From Pararhizobium sp. IMCC3301 (GTDB lineage: Bacteria > Pseudomonadota > Alphaproteobacteria > Rhizobiales > GCA-2746425): a DNA stretch of 64,000 nt. The translations under genes and the position numbers were made by a program. Where the stretch lies: positions 248,001-312,000 of the forward strand of contig NZ_CP132336.1 in NCBI RefSeq assembly GCF_030758315.1, given 5' to 3'. The notes beneath the pieces are model-generated. The model saw only the letters and a program-made list of their open reading frames with translations. It had not been told where the DNA came from and searched no databases. Below are positions 18,494 through 43,020 of this stretch, piece by piece (position 1 is the stretch's first letter; every line of letters begins with the position of its first letter).

Positions 18494-19636
18494 ATGCCGA
18501 TGAACCAGACAACACGACCTTCCGGTCTGAAGACAGCGCTGTCCTGGGGGCGTCGCGGAACTGCCGGGGCAACCATCGCTCGGGAAATGCGGTTTGATAA
18601 CATTTCCCACCACTATGGTCCGACCCGCGCGCTTCACGACATCAACCTGACCATCGCCTCTGGAGAAATTGTCTGTCTGCTGGGCCAGTCCGGATCTGGC
18701 AAAACAACACTTTTGCGCATTGCCGCAGGAATTGAAGCACCCCAATCCGGCCGCTTCCTTGTCGATGGCCAGGAATATGGGGCGCCGGACCGTCTGGTGC
18801 CGCCCGAAAAACGCGGTATCGGCCTGATGTTTCAGGATTTCGCGCTGTTCCCGCATCTTACAGTGTTGAAAAATGTCATGTTTGGGCTGACCGCACTGTC
18901 GTCCTCGATTGCCCGCAGCGAAGCGATGCTTGCGCTTGAAAGGGTCGGGCTTGCGCAGCATGCCGACCTGTATCCCCACCATTTATCAGGTGGTGAGCAA
19001 CAACGGGTTGCACTGGCGCGTTCAATCGCGCCGCGACCCGGCATTCTGCTGATGGATGAACCGTTTTCCGGTCTGGATCAGCGACTGCGCGACAGTGTCC
19101 GCGATGAGACGATTGCGATCCTTCGGGAAATGCGGGCAACCTGCCTTATGGTGACCCACGATCCTGAAGAGGCAATGCGGGTTGCAGACCGCATCCTTTT
19201 GATGAAACACGGGCAGATTGTGCAGGATGGATCAGCCCGGGAATTGTATTATCAACCCGTAGATCTGGCTTCCGCCAGATTCTTTTCCGAAGTAAACATG
19301 TTGGAAGGCGAAATTGTCGATGAGGCCGTCATCACTCCGGTCGGAACTTTTGCCGCCGAAGGCAAATCCAACGGCACGGCAAGCGTCTGTATCCGCTTTC
19401 AGGGTGTCAACATCATACCGATCACAAACCAGCCAGCTCCCGTCGGTGCCAAACTTGGTCGGGTTCTGAGACGGCGGTTTCTGGGGGAAGTGGATCTGGT
19501 GGATACAGCCGTTGAAGGTCTTGATGATCCTCTGCAGGCCCGTATCCGCAACGCCGACAATTTGAAGCCGGGTACGGAAGTTTTCGTCAGCTTCGATCCG
19601 AGAGACATTCTGGTGTTTGAAAAAGAAGAGCCGTAG
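18494..19636 (+). CDS. ABC transporter ATP-binding protein, FbpC/PotA-like
   Basis: The 380-residue protein has all ATPase motifs: Walker A GQSGSGKTT (about 63), Q-loop QDFALFPH, signature LSGGEQQR (about 163) and Walker B ILLMDEPFSGLD (about 184), then the switch histidine in MVTHDPEEAMR. A TOBE-like domain fills about 290-378, as in importer ATPases for iron(III), polyamines or sulphate; the DRLVPPEKRGIGLMFQDFALF stretch fits the FbpC group best. No permease or binding protein gene is next to it, so substrate and partners are unknown. The first 31 residues look unlike the family; a start at the ATG at 18587 (MRFDNISHHYG) is possible. It separates scpB from tatA. Confidence 0.88.
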   Translation: MPMNQTTRPSGLKTALSWGRRGTAGATIAREMRFDNISHHYGPTRALHDINLTIASGEIVCLLGQSGSGKTTLLRIAAGIEAPQSGRFLVDGQEYGAPDRLVPPEKRGIGLMFQDFALFPHLTVLKNVMFGLTALSSSIARSEAMLALERVGLAQHADLYPHHLSGGEQQRVALARSIAPRPGILLMDEPFSGLDQRLRDSVRDETIAILREMRATCLMVTHDPEEAMRVADRILLMKHGQIVQDGSARELYYQPVDLASARFFSEVNMLEGEIVDEAVITPVGTFAAEGKSNGTASVCIRFQGVNIIPITNQPAPVGAKLGRVLRRRFLGEVDLVDTAVEGLDDPLQARIRNADNLKPGTEVFVSFDPRDILVFEKEEP

Positions 19637-33591: not shown

Positions 33592-33638
33592 TCGATACTG
33601 TCAATCCTCAAATGTTGTCAACACAAATGGGGGCTCCC

Positions 33639-35813
33639 ATGCATCAGACGTTCAAATTCGCAATGCTTGCCGCATTACTCACCGGTCTGTCACCAACAGC
33701 CGCGCTCGCCGAGGCAGTATTCAACCGGATTTCAAGTTTTCCGGTCAACACCAACATACCGCCCAATATGGATCCCAAAACGGAATCCTCCGCAGAAATC
33801 ATCTCGGCGACAGCCGATGAAAACATGCTGATTTATTCAGACAGTCCACTCAGTGGAATCGGTCTGGTCGATATTTCCGATGCATCTGCTCCAAAGGCAG
33901 CGGGTTTTGTGCCTGTGGATGGTGAGCCAACCTCTGTTTCGGTGGCAGGAAATTATGCCTTGATCGGTGTCAACACCTCTGACAGTTACACCACACCGAG
34001 TGGCAAATTAGCGGTTCTCAATATTGCCACCGGAACCATTGAGTTGTCCTGCGAACTGACCGGTCAACCGGATTCCATTGCCATCTCCCCGGATAAATCA
34101 TTCCTAGCAATCGCGATCGAAAACGAACGCGATGAAGACCTGAATGACGGTATCATTCCACAATTGCCTGCAGGCAATGTCATGTTGTTCTCCCTGACCA
34201 GCGGTTTGCCTGACTGCGACAGCAGGCGCATTGTCGATCTGTCCGGACTGGCGGATATTGCAGGCAGCGACCCTGAGCCTGAATTTGTCGATATCAATTC
34301 CCTCAACGAAATTGTCGTCACGATGCAGGAAAATAACCACATTGCTGTCATTGACAGCATGACAGCGCAGGTAAAATCGCATTTTTCGGCGGCCACAGTC
34401 GATCTTCGGAATATCGACATTGAGGAAGAGGGCGCTCTGACTTTTGACGGCACGCTCTTGGCAGTGCGCCGCGAACCAGATGCGGTTCAGTGGCTCGATG
34501 ACGAGCGCTTTGTCACTGCAAATGAAGGCGACTATCAGGGCGGTTCGCGGAGCTTCACGATTTTCAGCAAAACGGGCGAGGTTCTCTATGAATCCGGTCT
34601 TGATTTTGAATACCGTGTCGCAATGGCCGGCCATTATCCGGAAAAGCGTTCCGCCAACAAGGGCGCAGAGCCGGAAGGACTGGAAGTCGCTTCCTATAAT
34701 GGCGAAACATTTATTTTCGTCCTTTCGGAACGCGGTTCTGTAATCGGTGTGTATCGCGACACCGGGTCTGTCCCGGAATTTGTTCAGTTGCTACCAACGG
34801 GCCTGGCACCGGAAGGGGCGATTGCACTGCCGCGCCGCAACCTGCTGGCAGTGGCAAATGAAGCCGATCTGATTGAGGATGGCGGCGTGCGCTCGCACGT
34901 GACGCTGTATCAGCTTGCAGATCAGACACCGGCCTATCCGATGATTCGTTCAGTCATGCAAGATGGCCGTCCCATCGGCTGGGGAGCTTTGTCGGGGCTG
35001 ACGGCGGATTTAGATATCCCGGGCAGACTCTATGCGGTCAATGACAGTTTTTATGCGATGCAGCCTACAATCTTCACGATTGATGCAACGACACAACCGG
35101 CAACCATAATCGCTGCAACGCCAGTTACCCGCAATGGCGTTCCGGCACAATTGCTGGATCTGGAAGGCATCACAAATGACGGCAAAGGCGGCTTCTGGCT
35201 CGCCTCGGAAGGCCGCACCGACCGGATGATCCCGCATGGCCTCTATCAAGTAACCGGAACGGGCGAAATCGAGCAACAGGTTCCCTTTCCAGCAGAGTTG
35301 CTGGCGGTGGAAAAACGCTTCGGCGCAGAGGGCATTGCCAGGGTCGGCGACCGCCTCTGGATTGCCATCCAGCGCAGTTGGGCGGATGACGCGGAAAACC
35401 GCGTCAAGCTGGTGTCATATGATATTGCCTCAAAGGAATGGGGCGCAGTGCTGTATCCCACCGAAGCTGCGAGCAGCGGCTGGATAGGCCTCTCGGAAAT
35501 CACAGTTTTCGGTGATTTCGCTTATCTTGTTGAGCGCGACAACCAGATCGGGGCAAATGCAAAGGTCAAAAAGCTGTATCGCGTCGCCCTGTCTGAACTC
35601 GAACCGGCCCCGCTGGGCGGGGAATTACCAGTCGTCAACAAGGAAATGGTTCGCGATTTTCTGCCCGACATGAAAGCAACAGGCGGCTATGTGGTCGACA
35701 AGATTGAGGGATTTGCGATTGACGCATCTGGCGTCGGATTTGCTGTTACCGATAATGACGGAGTTGATGACAGCAACGGCGAGACATTGTTTTTCTCAAC
35801 CGGGAATATGTAA
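33639..35813 (+). CDS. Exported esterase-like phytase with N-terminal beta-propeller-like domain
   Basis: The 724-residue protein has a signal peptide (about 1-26, ending AALAEA). The first half is propeller-like (GIGLVDISDASAPKAAGFVPVDGEPTSVSV; PDSIAISPDKSFLAIAIENE; SANKGAEPEGLEVASYNGETFIFVLSER), as in choice-of-anchor-I type proteins. The second half (about 435-715) has the features of the esterase-like phytase domain: LSGLTADLDIPGRLYAVND, LLDLEGITNDGKGGFWLASEGR and KIEGFAIDASGVGFAVTDNDGV. It probably releases phosphate from organic phosphoesters in the periplasm or outside. A GGGGG ribosome-binding site lies ahead of the ATG at 33639; an ATG at 33612 is in frame but less well placed. A Pho-box-like site precedes it and a strong terminator follows. 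Confidence 0.85.
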   Translation: MHQTFKFAMLAALLTGLSPTAALAEAVFNRISSFPVNTNIPPNMDPKTESSAEIISATADENMLIYSDSPLSGIGLVDISDASAPKAAGFVPVDGEPTSVSVAGNYALIGVNTSDSYTTPSGKLAVLNIATGTIELSCELTGQPDSIAISPDKSFLAIAIENERDEDLNDGIIPQLPAGNVMLFSLTSGLPDCDSRRIVDLSGLADIAGSDPEPEFVDINSLNEIVVTMQENNHIAVIDSMTAQVKSHFSAATVDLRNIDIEEEGALTFDGTLLAVRREPDAVQWLDDERFVTANEGDYQGGSRSFTIFSKTGEVLYESGLDFEYRVAMAGHYPEKRSANKGAEPEGLEVASYNGETFIFVLSERGSVIGVYRDTGSVPEFVQLLPTGLAPEGAIALPRRNLLAVANEADLIEDGGVRSHVTLYQLADQTPAYPMIRSVMQDGRPIGWGALSGLTADLDIPGRLYAVNDSFYAMQPTIFTIDATTQPATIIAATPVTRNGVPAQLLDLEGITNDGKGGFWLASEGRTDRMIPHGLYQVTGTGEIEQQVPFPAELLAVEKRFGAEGIARVGDRLWIAIQRSWADDAENRVKLVSYDIASKEWGAVLYPTEAASSGWIGLSEITVFGDFAYLVERDNQIGANAKVKKLYRVALSELEPAPLGGELPVVNKEMVRDFLPDMKATGGYVVDKIEGFAIDASGVGFAVTDNDGVDDSNGETLFFSTGNM

Positions 35814-36051: not shown

Positions 36052-36474
36052 TTAAGTCTCCGAATGTTTTGTCTAACGGTTTCAATTGATCAGGATTGTT
36101 GTGTTTCCCTGATGACCGTTACTTAGTGTGCGTTGCAGCATTTGAGGAGTGACAAAACAGCATGTCAGGCTTGCAGAAAACGCAGGCCTCAGACAAATTT
36201 GTGCGAAAGATCAAAGAGTTGTCATGTCTCGATTTCCTGAGATCGCCAGCCCTGCCGATTTCGCGAATTTCCAATACAGTTGTTACGATTATTTTCGACA
36301 GAAAGCCCTTTACGGCACTTTCCCGGGTGTCTCGACCTGCGTCTGACACGCTGGGCGATCCAAGACGAAAGGCTTGGAAGTTCACAGTTCGCTGTTGAGC
36401 ATCGTATTCCATGACCAGACGCGAATTCAAAGACCGCAAATCCAACAAGGATGATGCGGCAATTAATACGCAGC
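36052..36474. other. 423-bp stretch with no recognisable gene
   Basis: Short open frames exist on both strands (the longest is on the minus strand, 36119-36448, about 109 codons), but none shows a ribosome-binding site, signal peptide, domain or familiar motif. The DUF1127 promoter should lie in the first 100 bp. The rest could be a decayed gene or the 3' region of the L,D-transpeptidase transcript. Confidence 0.4.
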
Positions 36475-37020
36475 TCAGTGCTCTACGACCACTTGCGTTC
36501 CAACGCGGACCCGTTTGAACAGCTCGGTGATGTCTTCATTCAGCATCCGGATACAGCCGTAAGATACGAACCGGCCGATCGAACTCGGCTTATTGGTGCC
36601 ATGAATGGCGTAGTCGCCGCCTGAGAGTGTCAGCGCGGCGACACCCAATGGATTGTTAGGCGCCCCTCCCGGGATTATAGCCGGGAGGTTGGGCGAATCG
36701 CGTCTGATGGCAGGCGGAGGAGCCCAATTTGGGCTTACATGTTTGCCTTCAATGACGGAAGTGCCGGTCCACTGCCGTCCGACGCGCCCAACCCCTACCG
36801 GATAGCTAATGGCGCGTCCGCCCCTGATTACCAGGTAGAGCCGGCGTTCATTGGTTCGCACAACGATCGTGCCGCGCGCAACATCGCTTTTGAATGCAAC
36901 CACCTTGCCGGCGGCGGCTGAGGGAACAGTGGCCAGGAAGGCAAAAATAAGCCCTGCGCCGACCGCGATGAGCGCAGTTGAAAACGGTCTGCGCGCGCCG
37001 GCAGTACGATGGCTCACCAC
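36475..37020 (-). CDS. L,D-transpeptidase (YkuD family)
   Basis: Links peptidoglycan stems through 3-3 crosslinks or attaches outer-membrane proteins to peptidoglycan, in the periplasm. The 181-residue protein has a signal peptide (about 1-38), then the YkuD domain: VRTNERRLYLVIRGGRAISYPVGVGR, the conserved PIIPGG-like loop (LPAIIPGGAPNNPLG) and the active site IHGTNKP (His140) with SYGCIRM (Cys156). It starts with GTG at 37020, overlapping the stop codon of the ice-binding autotransporter gene upstream, so the two are translationally coupled. L,D-transpeptidases of this size are common in Hyphomicrobiales, which have many paralogues. Confidence 0.93.
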   Translation of the reverse strand: MVSHRTAGARRPFSTALIAVGAGLIFAFLATVPSAAAGKVVAFKSDVARGTIVVRTNERRLYLVIRGGRAISYPVGVGRVGRQWTGTSVIEGKHVSPNWAPPPAIRRDSPNLPAIIPGGAPNNPLGVAALTLSGGDYAIHGTNKPSSIGRFVSYGCIRMLNEDITELFKRVRVGTQVVVEH

Positions 37021-38969
37021 TGGAAACGTATCCGTGCGTTGCCGGAATAGGTCTGCGAGTTTTCGGCGAACTGGCTGTTGACCGACCCGGCAAGCGAGAA
37101 GCCGCTCGCCATCATGAACTCGGCCCCGGCGGAGAGGAGCACGGAATCACGTTCAGCTGCGGCGCCGTCCACGGTGAAGCTGTCAGATCCGGGTAGCGCC
37201 TGGAATGTGGCGGTTGTGCTCGGCTGGGAGGAATAATCATGCGCCCAGGCAACGCGGCCGCTGAGCGTGAGCGACGCTCCGTAGCCGACCGCGAAGGCGT
37301 GGTCGAACCGCGTGCCGAGCTCCGTGCGGGTCGTGGTCGTCGTCTGCTCGTCGTAGTCCAGCGCGAATGCGCCTGTGTCACTGGTCTCGCTGTAGTCCGG
37401 CGTATGGAAGACCTGCACGCGCACGGCACCATAGGGCGTGAGCCCTCCAAAACGGTATCCGGCCTCAACGTGCCCGGCAATGTTGGAGGCGTCGAAATCC
37501 GCCGTATAGCGGGCGCCGTCGAATGCCGTCGTCCGCTCGGTCGATTCGTCGTGGTAAGCATAAGCGAGCGCCGCAGCGATGTAGGCCGCATCCAAATTGG
37601 TGCGGCTGTAAATGGCCCCTTGGAACATGTTGCTACTGCCGTTGCCGAAACCGTCCGCCAGGCTGTAACTGGTGGCACCGCCAGACAACGCCAGGCCAAC
37701 CGTTGTGTCCTCTGTGATTTGGTAGTTGAGGCCGAAGACGACACCGTAATTGTCGCTCGACCGGTCGCGCGTACCTGATGCTGCATTGCCATCGACATCG
37801 CTGTCGCCACCATACAGGGCCGCCCAGACTCCCCAGCGACGCGGATCGGGTGCCGCCAACAGTGCGCCGCCAGAGGCCATAGCCATGTTGGCATCGGCGC
37901 CTTTCGAATTTTCCGGGGTCGCATAGCCGAGCACCATGAGGGTGTCGCGGCCGGGAGCAGTCTGATCACTCGGACCGCCCGGGCCGCTATCACCGCCGAA
38001 GCCCTGGTTGAGCACTGTATCGAGGAACGAATCCATCGCCTGCGTGCCGGTCGGCGTGACGCCGGTTGAGGCTTCCCCGGCAATCTGCGCGAGCGCATCC
38101 GCCAATTCGGCCGGCGTCAAGAAGTCGAGGACCTGGAACCCCAGCGGCAGGTCACCACCACCGGCGACGTAGTCGTCAATGACATCGGCGACATCCTGTG
38201 CACTATCAGACGCCATTTCATCCAGTTCATCCCCGATTACGACTTCGACCATCGCGCAGTCGACATACATTCCCCCAATTTCCGCTTCGAGGGCTTCGGC
38301 GACACTTATTCGGTTGGTGTCAAGCGTCACCGCAGCGTTGCGCGCCAGGGCAGCGCCGCAACTGATATTGGCACCAGTGTTCAGCGTGATGCTTGTCAGT
38401 GCAAGGATTCTTCCCTGAAACTCGGTAGCCGTTCCAAGTGTCGCGGAGCTGCCGACCCTGAAGAACACATTGTTGGGATTGGCGCCGCCGACCAACAAGA
38501 TCTTCGCATTCGAGCCCGTGGTCAGTGTGGACGGTATATTGAAAATGAAAACTGCGTCCGGGTCGCCGCCTCCGTCGAGGGTGAGTTCCCCATTTATTTG
38601 GGCAGAGGAGTCAAAACTGTAAACTCCTGGATTGAGAGACTGGCCACTTCCTACAATAGCTGTCAGGCTGGCGGTCGCGGGCCTTCCTGCCAGAACATTG
38701 TAGGCAGTGGTCAGATCGGCTTTCGCCTGCACAGCGACACCGTTGGTTACATATCTGGTATAAGGGAAAACTACGCTCCCGGGTGGGAACCCGGTGATCG
38801 CGGAGCCCGGGCTTAGGCCGATATTTCCGTTTATGACGGTGGGACCAGTATTGGTGATCTCCGATCCGGCCAGGACCCCAAAGGTCTCCAGCGACTGGGC
38901 CTCGGCCCGGGGCGCGAGGGCGAAAGTGGAAATTGCTAAAACGGCTGCAGTGGTTGTGCGAATTCTCAA
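37014..38969 (-). CDS. Autotransporter-type protein with DUF3494 ice-binding passenger
   Basis: Predicted surface protein of 651 residues: signal peptide (1-25, MRIRTTTAAVLAISTFALAP), a DUF3494-type ice-binding domain (about 27-222), a linker (about 225-385), and an autotransporter beta-barrel (about 388-651) ending in the aromatic signature RIRFQW. The passenger has the family's marks: FGVLAGSEITNTGPTVINGNIGLSPG, TAYNVLAG, the DGGGDPDAVFIFNI strand, FRVGSSATLG and the closing ARNAAVTLDTN. DUF3494 domains bind ice or, in some relatives, act as adhesins. I chose the TTG at 38969 because GGAG sits 8 bp ahead; a TTG at 39002 would add 11 residues unlike a signal peptide. Its stop overlaps the L,D-transpeptidase start. 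The sequence looks GC-richer than its surroundings. Antifreeze activity is inferred, not shown. Confidence 0.88.
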   Translation of the reverse strand: MRIRTTTAAVLAISTFALAPRAEAQSLETFGVLAGSEITNTGPTVINGNIGLSPGSAITGFPPGSVVFPYTRYVTNGVAVQAKADLTTAYNVLAGRPATASLTAIVGSGQSLNPGVYSFDSSAQINGELTLDGGGDPDAVFIFNIPSTLTTGSNAKILLVGGANPNNVFFRVGSSATLGTATEFQGRILALTSITLNTGANISCGAALARNAAVTLDTNRISVAEALEAEIGGMYVDCAMVEVVIGDELDEMASDSAQDVADVIDDYVAGGGDLPLGFQVLDFLTPAELADALAQIAGEASTGVTPTGTQAMDSFLDTVLNQGFGGDSGPGGPSDQTAPGRDTLMVLGYATPENSKGADANMAMASGGALLAAPDPRRWGVWAALYGGDSDVDGNAASGTRDRSSDNYGVVFGLNYQITEDTTVGLALSGGATSYSLADGFGNGSSNMFQGAIYSRTNLDAAYIAAALAYAYHDESTERTTAFDGARYTADFDASNIAGHVEAGYRFGGLTPYGAVRVQVFHTPDYSETSDTGAFALDYDEQTTTTTRTELGTRFDHAFAVGYGASLTLSGRVAWAHDYSSQPSTTATFQALPGSDSFTVDGAAAERDSVLLSAGAEFMMASGFSLAGSVNSQFAENSQTYSGNARIRFQW

Positions 38970-38976
38970 GTCAATT

Positions 38977-39016
38977 ACTCCAAGTCTCGATTCACTTACC
39001 AAAGTCTCAATTCACT
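38977..39016 (-). repeat. Imperfect 20-bp tandem repeat at the autotransporter start
   Basis: Two adjacent copies of an AGTGAATTGAGACTT-like unit sit just upstream of the chosen TTG start. The second copy differs by a few bases and supplies the GGAG ribosome-binding site. Either slippage during a recent rearrangement or a duplicated leader could explain it. Confidence 0.55.
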
Positions 39017-39077
39017 GACCCCAAAACGTCGAATCCCGGGGGGCGCGTTCAACACTCTTAAAATGGTTTGGACTGGC

Positions 39078-39144
39078 TCAATCATTCGGCGATTTGCTCG
39101 CGGATGGTGCGAGACCACACAGGAGCAGATCACCGAAGGATTGA
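39078..39144. repeat. Long inverted repeat upstream of the autotransporter
   Basis: Two 22-bp arms (39078-39099 and 39123-39144) match as inverted repeats at 19 of 22 positions around a 23-bp loop that itself holds TGGT/ACCA. It could form a stem in the leader of the autotransporter mRNA or be a transposon end. No T-run follows on either side, so it is not a simple terminator. Confidence 0.6.
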
Positions 39145-39160
39145 GCGGCGTATTGGTCAG

Positions 39161-39326
39161 TTAGCAGGTTGTTGAAAAAAGATTTCAGGCGTGAGAGGCA
39201 AGAAAATGTTTTCGCCCATAGCCCTTCAAAGCAAAATTAGTCCAAGAAACAATCGAAATCAAATTTCCATTTGCGATTCTACAGTAATCTATCCACCCAG
39301 TTTCGACCTTTTCAGAAACTTGTTAG
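39161..39326. mobile_element. Possible MITE or IS remnant, 166 bp
   Basis: The ends TTAGCAGGTTGTTGAAAA (39161-39178) and TTTTCAGAAACTTGTTAG (39309-39326) are imperfect inverted repeats, with about 13 of 18 positions matching. The inside is A+T-rich and has no coding capacity. GTTGTTGAAAAA-type ends are frequent in bacterial insertion sequences. No target duplication is certain. Confidence 0.4.
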
Positions 39327-39400
39327 ATTAGGCATCGCCCCGCAAAAAAATTAGCACAAGAAACCAAAGGTTGCAACGTCATTTCCGAGTTCTGAACTAA

Positions 39401-39703
39401 GTGTCTGTACGAGTAATTGAGTGAAAGTAGCGCATTTGAATCTCCTTGTCTGGGGTAGAACATGGAGGATGGAAATGGTGCGGATCCTTTCACCCGTGCC
39501 GATCATGACCGTAGCGGGTTACGCTATGCAAGCGGCACAACGCAGGAGGAGTGGCGGCGGACCTTGGCCTGCTTCGGTATCAACCGCTGTCTGTCAAAGA
39601 ATTTTGAGCGCTTCGCACCCACCATCTCCGTCTTTATCCAATCCGCCATGACAAAGCTCATGGCAAGGCGCCTCACACGCATTGCCTATTCTTGAACAGA
39701 CTC
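39401..39703 (+). mobile_element. Internally deleted IS5-family-like element
   Basis: The open frame 39462-39695 joins what looks like the N-terminus of an IS5-type transposase (DRSGLRYASGTTQEEW) directly to its C-terminus (CLSKNFERFAPTISVF, then MARRLTRIA and a stop), in frame, with the catalytic DDE middle gone. Flanking GTGTCTGTACGAG (39401-39413) and CTTGAACAGACTC (39691-39703) match as inverted repeats at 10 of 13 positions. This is best read as a deletion derivative of an IS, unable to move by itself. The exact subgroup is uncertain. Confidence 0.55.
39462..39695 (+). pseudogene. Transposase remnant, N- and C-terminal parts fused
   Basis: A 78-codon frame containing only the two ends of an IS5-type transposase. 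The catalytic core with the DDE residues is missing, so no active enzyme is made. It lies within the 303-bp element with terminal inverted repeats and between the ice-binding autotransporter and uvrA. Confidence 0.5.
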
Positions 39704-39916
39704 CGAGTAGGAAAGTTGCGTTGAGAATAAGTGTGGGCAGACGTGCCGGTCTCGTGAGTTTTCACCAATTGGCCCCGATTTCCGACCTGATTGGCCCTGT
39801 CCCATCATAGCTGTTAAAACGGCCAACGAAGCTGTGAATCAAAGGTGTCATTCCTGAGACCGGAGGGCCTTCCGAGGATCGGAGGAGCCGGTTTCCCGCA
39901 ATTTCCGGATTCGCCT
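39704..39916. other. Gap between IS remnant and uvrA 3' end
   Basis: About 210 bp without a recognisable gene. The stretch TTTTCACCAATTGGCCCCGA followed by GACCTGATTGGCCCTGTCCC contains a repeated TTGGCCC unit and may be more mobile-element debris. No terminator for uvrA is obvious. Confidence 0.35.
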
Positions 39917-42862
39917 CTACTCAGCGGCCTGCATCACAGCAGTTTTATCAGGCCTACGGTCAAGCAGGTCCTTCAAAAATCTGCCGGTATAGGATCGTTC
40001 TTCCCGAATAATATCTTCAGGCGTTCCTTCCGCCACGATTTCTCCGCCGCCATCGCCACCTTCCGGTCCGATATCAATCACCCAGTCGGCGGTTTTGATG
40101 ACTTCAAGATTGTGTTCGATGACTGCCACCGTATTGCCCTGATCGACAAGTTCATGAAGCACTTCCAGTAGTTTCGCCACATCGTGAAAATGCAACCCGG
40201 TTGTTGGTTCATCGAGAATATACAGGGTCCGGCCTGTCGAGCGTTTAGACAGTTCCTTGGCAAGTTTCACGCGCTGCGCTTCGCCGCCGGACAATGTTGT
40301 GGCCTGTTGACCGACCTTGATGTAGCCCAGCCCGACACGTTGCAAGGTCAACATCTTGTCGCGCACTGCCGGCACAGCCGAAAAGAACTCTGCGCCTTCA
40401 TCCACCGTCATATCCAGCACGCCGGAAATCGATTTGCCCTTGAACTGAACCTCAAGAGTTTCGCGGTTGTAGCGCTTGCCCTTGCAGACATCACAGGTGA
40501 CATAGACATCGGGCAGAAAATGCATTTCGATCTTCATCACGCCATCGCCCTGGCATGCTTCACAGCGCCCGCCCTTGACATTGAACGAGAACCGGCCCGG
40601 AGCGTAGCCTCTGACTTTCGCTTCCGGCAGGCCTGAAAACCATTCGCGAATTGGTGTGAAGGCCCCGGTATAGGTTGCCGGATTGGACCTTGGCGTGCGC
40701 CCGATAGGCGATTGATCGATATCGATCACCTTGTCGAGATGCTCCAGTCCGGTGATTGAGCTGTACGGAGCGGGCAGGCTCCTGGCACCATTCAGATGTT
40801 TGGCAACAGCACGGTATAGGGTGTCCAGCAGCAGGGTCGACTTGCCACCGCCCGAGACCCCGCTGATACAACAGAATGTGCCAAGCGGTATTGATGCAGT
40901 GACGTCTTTCAAATTGTTGCCGGTGGCGCCTTTGACGGTGATCTTGCGGTTCTTCACCGGCTTGCGCCGCGTTTTGGGAAGCGGGATCGACAACTGGCCG
41001 GACAGATATTGCCCGGTCAGGGATTTCTTGCATTTCATGATTTTGTCAGGGGTGCCGGCGACAATGATTTCACCGCCGTGAATTCCGGCAAGAGGGCCCA
41101 CATCAACCACGTGATCCGCTGTCAGAATGGCTTCTTCATCGTGTTCAACAACAATGACTGTGTTGCCGAGGTCGCGCAGATGCTTGAGCGTGGTCAACAG
41201 CCGGTCATTATCGCGTTGATGCAGACCGATCGATGGCTCATCGAGCACATACAGCACGCCGGTCAGACCGGAACCGATCTGCGAGGCAAGGCGGATCCGC
41301 TGGCTTTCACCGCCGGACAATGTTCCCGAATTCCGCGACAAGGTCAGATAATCCAGCCCGACATCATTGAGAAACGCCAACCTTTCCCGGATTTCCTTCA
41401 GGATACGCCCGGCGATCTCGTTCTGCTTATCGGTTAATTCCGCCGGCAGCGTTTCAAACCAGTGCATCGCCTTGCGGATTGATAATTCGCTGATCTGGGC
41501 AATATGCCGCCCTGAAATCTTCACCGCCAGAGCCTCCGGCTTCAACCGGTAGCCATCGCAGGTCTGGCAGGGTGCCGAGGACATGAATTTATCAATGTCC
41601 TCACGTGCCCATGACGAATCGGTTTCGCGCCAGCGCCGCTCAAGGTTGGGAATGACACCTTCAAACGGCTTTTTGGTCTTGTAGGACCGCAATCCGTCAT
41701 CATAGGTGAAGGTGATTTCCTGTTTGCCGGTTCCAAACAGCACCGCTGTCTGCGCCTCGGCGGACAATTTCGACCATTTATCGCGCAGGCCGAACCCGTA
41801 TACTTTGCCGATGGCTGCCAGGGTCTGCTGATAATAGGGTGATGTGGAGCGGGACCACGGCGCAACAGCGCCCTTGGCGATGGAAATCTCCGGGTCCGGG
41901 ATCACCAGATCCTCGGCGATCCGTTTTTCCGACCCAAGCCCGTCACAGGTTGGACAGGCGCCAAACGGATTGTTGAAGGAGAACAGCCGCGGCTCGATCT
42001 CGGCAATGGTAAAGCCGGAGACGGGACAGGCGAATTTCTCCGAGAATATCAACCTCTCCGCCGCGTCGGCACCGTCATCCTTGTCGGCGTATTCTGCAAC
42101 CGCTATCCCGTCTGCCAACCCCAATGCGGTTTCCAGGGAATCCGCCAGCCGGGAAGAAATATCGGGACGCACGACGATCCGATCCACCACAACATCGATA
42201 TCGTGCTTGTACTTCTTGTCGAGAACGGGTGCCTCGGAAATCTCGTAATAGGCGCCATCAATCTTGATCCGCAAAAACCCCTTTTTCTGCAGCTCTGCAA
42301 GTTCCTTGCGATATTCGCCCTTGCGCCCGCGTACAATCGGAGCCAGCAGATAAAGCCGCGTGCCTTCCGGCAAATGGAGGATGCGGTCAACCATCTGGCT
42401 GATGGTCTGGCTTTCAATCGGCAGCCCCGTCGCAGGAGAGTAGGGAATTCCGACACGGGCAAACAGCAGCCGCATATAATCGTATATTTCGGTGACGGTT
42501 CCCACCGTCGATCGCGGATTGCGCGACGTCGTCTTCTGTTCAATGGAAATTGCCGGAGACAGACCATCAATCTGGTCAACATCCGGTTTTTGCATCATCT
42601 CCAGAAATTGCCGCGCATAGGCCGACAGGGATTCAACATAGCGTCTCTGGCCCTCCGCATAGATCGTGTCAAATGCCAGTGACGATTTGCCAGAGCCTGA
42701 CAGGCCGGTCATCACGATCAGCTTGTCTCTTGGCAGATCAATGTCGACATTCTTCAGATTGTGCTCACGGGCACCGCGAACAGAAATCATCGGAGCAAGA
42801 TTGTGTGCCGCACTGGATCGACTGCGTTTTCCGGAACTGGATTTGCTGGGCATAGAACTCAT
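39917..42862 (-). CDS. uvrA: Excinuclease ABC subunit A
   Basis: DNA-damage recognition ATPase of nucleotide excision repair. The 981 residues contain two ABC modules: Walker [10 protein letters not shown] near the N-terminus and GVSGGGKST in the second half, signatures LSGGESQR and LSGGEAQR, and Walker [15 protein letters not shown] and [14 protein letters not shown]. Zinc-binding CxxC motifs are present ([24 protein letters not shown] and CDVCKGKR). The ATG at 42862 is preferred over an upstream GTG at 42889. An SOS box lies 160 bp upstream. Divergent from ssb. Confidence 0.98.
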
Positions 42863-43020
42863 TTGACCGTCTGAACAGAAGTGGGGCACCCAATGGATTG
42901 GAAGGGCAGCAGGTGTCGTTCGCCATTTGGCGTTTTCCGAACGCTATTCAAGGCCCCGGAAACGGAATCACGCAGGCATCTTGCAATTCTCGAAAGGCTA
43001 ATGCATGTTGATTTGAATTG

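Follow-up and report, generated by a model that had tools for sequence, protein, structure and literature searches.

A DUF3494 ice-binding-like autotransporter and an adjoining L,D-transpeptidase in an inserted segment of Pararhizobium sp. IMCC3301

A stretch of 64,000 nucleotides of Pararhizobium sp. IMCC3301 (NZ_CP132336.1, positions 248,001-312,000), referred to here as the window and within which all positions are counted, encodes a protein in which an ice-binding-like domain of the DUF3494 family (PF11999) is joined to the outer-membrane barrel of an autotransporter. The next gene on the same strand specifies an L,D-transpeptidase, and its start codon overlaps the stop codon of the fusion gene. 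We consider it probable, though not strongly so, that the two genes constitute a horizontally acquired cassette, which would combine a surface ice-binding autotransporter with a translationally coupled transpeptidase reinforcing the envelope. The parts of the two genes are as follows.

37014..38969, minus strand: ice-binding autotransporter gene, 651 amino acids, TTG start, TGA stop; all 13 aligned relatives, counting the window, have the two domains
38978..38981, minus strand: GGAG, probable ribosome-binding site, 8 nucleotides 5' of the TTG start; sequence reading
38898..38969, minus strand: signal peptide, residues 1-24; sequence, model helix at 6-18, probable cleavage after AEA
38307..38876, minus strand: DUF3494/PF11999 ice-binding-like passenger, residues 32-221; profile match and predicted fold
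38007..38237, minus strand: helical linker, residues 245-321, common to ordinary autotransporters of the order; relatives and model
37839..38003, minus strand: low-confidence stretch from the helices to the barrel, residues 323-377; predicted local distance difference test score (pLDDT) <50
37017..37832, minus strand: 12-strand autotransporter barrel, residues 380-651, terminal Trp; domain match and model
36475..37020, minus strand: L,D-transpeptidase (YkuD, PF03734), GTG start overlapping the stop of the fusion (GTGGTGA); domain match and relatives

The match of the fusion protein to PF11999 scores 200.5 bits against a cut-off of 28.7 and extends over positions 1-207 of the 208 in the profile. 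The predicted passenger has the discontinuous β-solenoid and the one long bracing helix that characterise DUF3494, and the C-terminal part is modelled as the 12-strand PF03797 barrel typical of type Va autotransporters. A preliminary description of this DNA had placed a DUF3494 domain at residues 27-222 directly ahead of a barrel at residues 388-651. This arrangement is confirmed by the sequence, the predicted fold and the relatives, with the boundaries given above, and Pfam finds both families together in each of the 13 aligned proteins (12 from a sample of the order and L032, a Rhizobiaceae metagenome assembly). The signal peptide and terminal aromatic residue that had been described are also borne out by a hydrophobic stretch with AEA ahead of Gln25 and by the final Trp, which is shared by 12 of the 13 aligned proteins, the remaining one ending in Phe.

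The passenger of an autotransporter is usually a long β-helix. The passengers of the autotransporters EstA of Pseudomonas aeruginosa, an esterase, and NalP of Neisseria (3kvn, 1uyn) differ from that of the window. Known bacterial ice adhesins hold the ice-binding domain on long repeat stalks and not on an autotransporter barrel. A Gly/Thr-rich stalk of low complexity, very roughly 85 residues at most, lies between the ice-binding domain and the linker in four of the relatives (L035, L049, L052, L056) and is absent from the window protein. A pair of cysteines at the end of the solenoid (alignment columns of Cys204 and Cys238 of P0001) is kept in all 13 passengers, with a similar pair in two free PEP-CTERM relatives (L123 and L124); disulphides are a possible hindrance to autotransport.

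Genes matching PF11999 are encoded in 12 of the 397 genomes sampled from the order, and in all 12 the domain is fused to the barrel. The same architecture is found at 14 loci in all, comprising the window and L032, a further 11 from the order sample, and G780. The L032 protein is the nearest relative of the window fusion (62% identity) and belongs to a different family, while in G780 (L169) the frame is ended by an in-frame stop in the last part of the barrel, with the transpeptidase still adjacent. In the genus g78 the fusion occurs in 7 of 14 genomes. Outside the order, Pfam finds PF03797 in none of 27 distinct ice-binding open reading frames (ORFs), two of them fragments; 10 carry Big_5, 3 carry PEP-CTERM and 14 have no other family above the cut-off. 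These ORFs come from a sample of the class (385 genomes, 3 above the cut-off), a sample of the phylum (398 genomes, 21 above it), both counts including the window's own genome, and one further locus; L060, L061 and three matches in G847, G832 and G817 stood outside this comparison. The barrel is also missing in six weaker or divergent matches passed over by the profile (L058, L059, L128, L129, L130, L137). Since the domain is fused in 12 of 12 carriers inside the order as against 0 of 27 ORFs outside it, the fusion is, within the genome samples examined, peculiar to this order. The weak matches L128, L129 and L137, from other members of the phylum, are accompanied by DUF7305 or bactofilin-like matches, and a bactofilin combination (pfam04519_pfam11999) is also a table line in PMC9957290.

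A tree of the 13 ice-binding barrels with 35 other autotransporter barrels separates the fusions into two types. Ten barrels including that of the window (type I) form one clade (support 100/99) among ordinary autotransporters having the same linker and barrel. The other three, L048, L050 and L054 (type II), form their own clade (100/99) elsewhere in the tree and have a different barrel, no helical linker and no linked transpeptidase. A single fusion event on one barrel was considered, and the one common barrel clade it calls for is rejected by the approximately unbiased (AU) test (p 1.6e-40). There were thus at least two fusion events, which involved different barrels. The tree of the ice-binding domain splits along the same line (96/97 and 99/96), with both groups inside one larger supported group (100/100), so that transfer of the passenger between barrels is possible.

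The neighbouring gene, which the preliminary description had passed over, matches PF03734 with an E-value of 1.6e-25. Its HGTN and GCIRM motifs, which we take to be the catalytic His and Cys motifs of a YkuD transpeptidase, are invariant in all 11 linked copies. At 10 of the 13 aligned loci and in G780 the fusion has such a copy on its own strand no more than 0.9 kb away, which amounts to 11 of 11 type I and 0 of 3 type II fusions, and the linked copy is the best match of its genome to the query transpeptidase in 10 of the 10 linked-copy genomes examined. A Crp/Fnr-type regulator, which may control the fusion, lies divergently upstream of it in L034, L035, L049, L052 and L056 (by Pfam in four and by tblastn in L056); the remaining type I loci searched, among them the window, gave none.

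That the transpeptidase is a mere fellow traveller, the two genes sharing one piece of DNA and acting apart, is an explanation to which both the location of the genes on a single insertion of ~3.7 kb and the wide occurrence of the transpeptidase subfamily without the fusion would lend themselves. The pairing persists, however, in spite of a changed gene order, the transpeptidase being downstream of the fusion in 6 of 11 loci (window, L032, L034, L051, L055, G780) and upstream in 5 (L035, L049, L052, L053, L056), and a stop-start overlap of the same kind recurs in the window, L032, L051 and L055. An adjacent transpeptidase was found at none of 12 ordinary autotransporters with a related barrel (6 genomes, five of the 12 from G144), which also rules out that the pairing simply goes with this type of barrel; at one of these loci (L069) a 44%-identical YkuD gene lies 2.3 kb away on the opposite strand. 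We therefore regard mere co-residence as somewhat unlikely. In the family f16 (28 genomes) all 9 fusion carriers have the subfamily, as does 1 of the 19 other genomes (hypergeometric p 1.4e-6, uncorrected for descent), and in the genus g78 it is present in 7 of 7 carriers and 0 of 7 others.

Several points nevertheless weigh against a functional cassette of ice adhesin and transpeptidase. The fusion is rare in the order, and the type II loci leave 3 of the 14 fusions with no linked transpeptidase. The subfamily is present in 107 of the 397 genomes of the order (E <= 1e-46), 9 of them with a type I fusion, and 22 of the 30 best transpeptidase loci have no related barrel within ~1.5 kb. The 11 type I pairings are not 11 independent events, since the relatives share descent. 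DUF3494 has also been reported from ice-free environments such as caves, lake sediment and hydrothermal vents (PMC12337378). A transpeptidase exclusive to the fusion is ruled out by the count of 107 genomes; the signal is therefore the pairing and not the existence of the enzyme, which has been recruited and is not unique. In a tree of 10 linked and 20 unlinked copies, taken from a larger set of matches, the linked transpeptidases form a clade of their own with a support of only 43/8, which becomes 100/99 when one unlinked copy of G066 is added. A second transpeptidase of the subfamily is seen in G066 (L168, C1 around 1413415), with no related barrel within ~7 kb.

Comparison with four congeners delimits the segment in which the two genes reside.

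36191..39916, no strand assigned: inserted segment with both genes; site nearly empty in all four congeners; approximate edges
33612..35813, plus strand: phytase-like gene, left flank; matched almost in full in two of the four congeners, partly in one and not at all in one
39917..42889, minus strand: uvrA, right flank; domain match and congener alignment

The flanks are collinear in all four congeners, in which the site holds 150 (L175), 157 (L174), 292 (L176) and ~350 (L177) bases as compared to 3.7-4.0 kb between the same aligned edges in the window. For the left flank L175 and L176 are the most informative, because the phytase-like match is partial in L174 and lacking in L177. Neither the fusion nor the transpeptidase is found in these congeners at the thresholds used, their best transpeptidase matches having 50-51% identity. 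The near-empty site supports the accessory location that had been proposed earlier, and with it acquisition by horizontal transfer. The fusion gene has a raised GC content and a raised GC content at third codon positions (GC3). Loss from the four congeners is possible in principle; the raised GC and the occurrence of the closest relative in another family speak for gain by horizontal transfer. The mobile-element debris that had been thought to flank the gene was not found, and no transposase, repeat or tRNA was seen at the edges of the insertion. A search for RNA families gave 0 hits, and searches for direct repeats and for copies of the upstream stretch yielded nothing informative, as did Pfam (four ORFs) and NCBIfam (two ORFs) for the small flanking ORFs. 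Of 98 plasmid records matched, none among the 30 listed covers more than 80% of the query. A fragment of an IS110-type transposase is seen upstream of the module of the nearest relative (L032:3794-4156).

The two-domain architecture is already on record, as pfam11999_pfam03797 in Table 1 of PMC9957290, which deals with Central Arctic Ocean metagenomes, with values of 24.83 and 0.30 that we take as abundance (reads per kilobase per million, RPKM) and per cent. The main text of that paper has the word autotransporter once, in this table line, which gives no taxon; proteins of the same two-domain architecture as the window's are only listed there. No other report of the fusion, and none of its pairing with an L,D-transpeptidase, was found in a literature search that had subscription papers mostly outside its reach. 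The novelty implied by the preliminary description is hence weaker than it seemed, as the architecture had been listed and recurs in every carrier of the order. As far as the search reaches, the two separate origins of the fusion, its pattern across the order, its pairing with a transpeptidase and the almost empty site of the congeners are new.

Among solved structures, the sequence closest to the passenger is that of the ice-binding protein 6eio (E 1.2e-44) from an Antarctic biological consortium, presumably the protein named EfcIBP/EFsymbAFP. It is a chain of 237 residues solved with no barrel, whereas the passenger of the window sits on one. Five repeated rows of six residues in the solenoid of the window (SAQING, STLTTG, SATLGT, SITLNT, AVTLDT) agree with those of 6eio at 17 of 30 positions, and the upper four rows at 16 of 24. 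Positions 1, 3 and 6 of four rows are occupied by Thr, Ser or Ala in 129 of 156 cases over the 13 aligned proteins, the register and the outward-facing residues being deduced from alternation and not from coordinates. This similarity supports ice binding by the passenger and makes ice adhesion plausible.

The occurrence of DUF3494 in ice-free places, together with the presence of the same barrel type in ordinary autotransporters of the order, which marks the scaffold as a general surface-display device, would also fit a passenger that has lost ice binding and serves as a general adhesin or biofilm protein retaining the solenoid. Against this stand the Ser/Thr/Ala-rich rows, kept 6eio-like over the 13 aligned proteins, and the presence of the domain on two barrels of unrelated branches, which points to selection for some property of the domain itself. 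The loss of ice binding therefore appears rather unlikely.

The fusion gene encodes a classical (type Va) autotransporter having the DUF3494 domain as its passenger. By analogy with established autotransporters, the protein would be exported by Sec, its barrel would insert in the outer membrane assisted by the β-barrel assembly machinery (BAM), and the passenger would be displayed at the cell surface, probably remaining attached. Some autotransporters release their passengers. Most characterised ice-binding proteins consist of a single domain with a signal peptide (PMC9957290). Both facts would fit a passenger that is cut off and leaves the cell as soluble antifreeze protein, with the barrel as export device only; we hold this to be quite unlikely. 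A displayed passenger would most likely bind ice, either for adhesion or for local control of recrystallisation.

L,D-transpeptidases tie outer-membrane β-barrels to the wall in Hyphomicrobiales, as described in PMC11527210 and PMC10787603, so that the partner enzyme could make the envelope of an ice-held cell stronger. In the Agrobacterium and Brucella systems, which belong to the order of the window, barrels and L,D-transpeptidases act together, and one may ask if the enzyme ties the fusion barrel itself covalently to peptidoglycan. Such tethering in the same order, the overlap of the two genes and the 55-residue low-confidence stretch ahead of the barrel would all be in keeping with it. The known linkage, however, is through an N-terminal Ala-Asp motif (PMC10787603), whereas the window protein would, once mature, begin with Gln-Ser-Leu, and its N-terminus is part of the passenger. 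Lysine is missing from the low-confidence stretch in four of the 10 type I proteins (L032, L051, L053, L055). With neither that motif, nor an N-terminus free of the passenger, nor a conserved lysine before the barrel, the direct link is doubtful, indeed quite unlikely, and general reinforcement of the wall is the likelier role. The transpeptidase of the cassette would then most likely strengthen the cell wall, or the link between wall and outer membrane, in cells carrying the adhesin.

The joint acquisition of the two genes, which would have arrived together by horizontal transfer with their translation coupled, suggests a transferable kit for a surface ice-binding protein. A bolder version, in our view unlikely, would make of the fusion, a dedicated transpeptidase and sometimes the divergent Crp/Fnr regulator a mobile module of two or three genes purpose-built for anchoring to ice, in which the transpeptidase locks the outer membrane to the wall, directly or via other barrels, for load-bearing. 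An autotransporter form this compact, which was produced at least two times within a single order and has stayed together with a cell-wall enzyme in one lineage, would provide surface ice binding by another route. The fusion would offer a small ready-made display module, and the pairing a case in which to test if an enzyme that crosslinks the wall can serve a single surface protein exclusively.

Elsewhere in the window, ARAGORN reports a tRNA-Asp (anticodon atc) at 18948-19040, which lies inside an ORF of 380 residues on the same strand (18494-19636) and is probably a false call.
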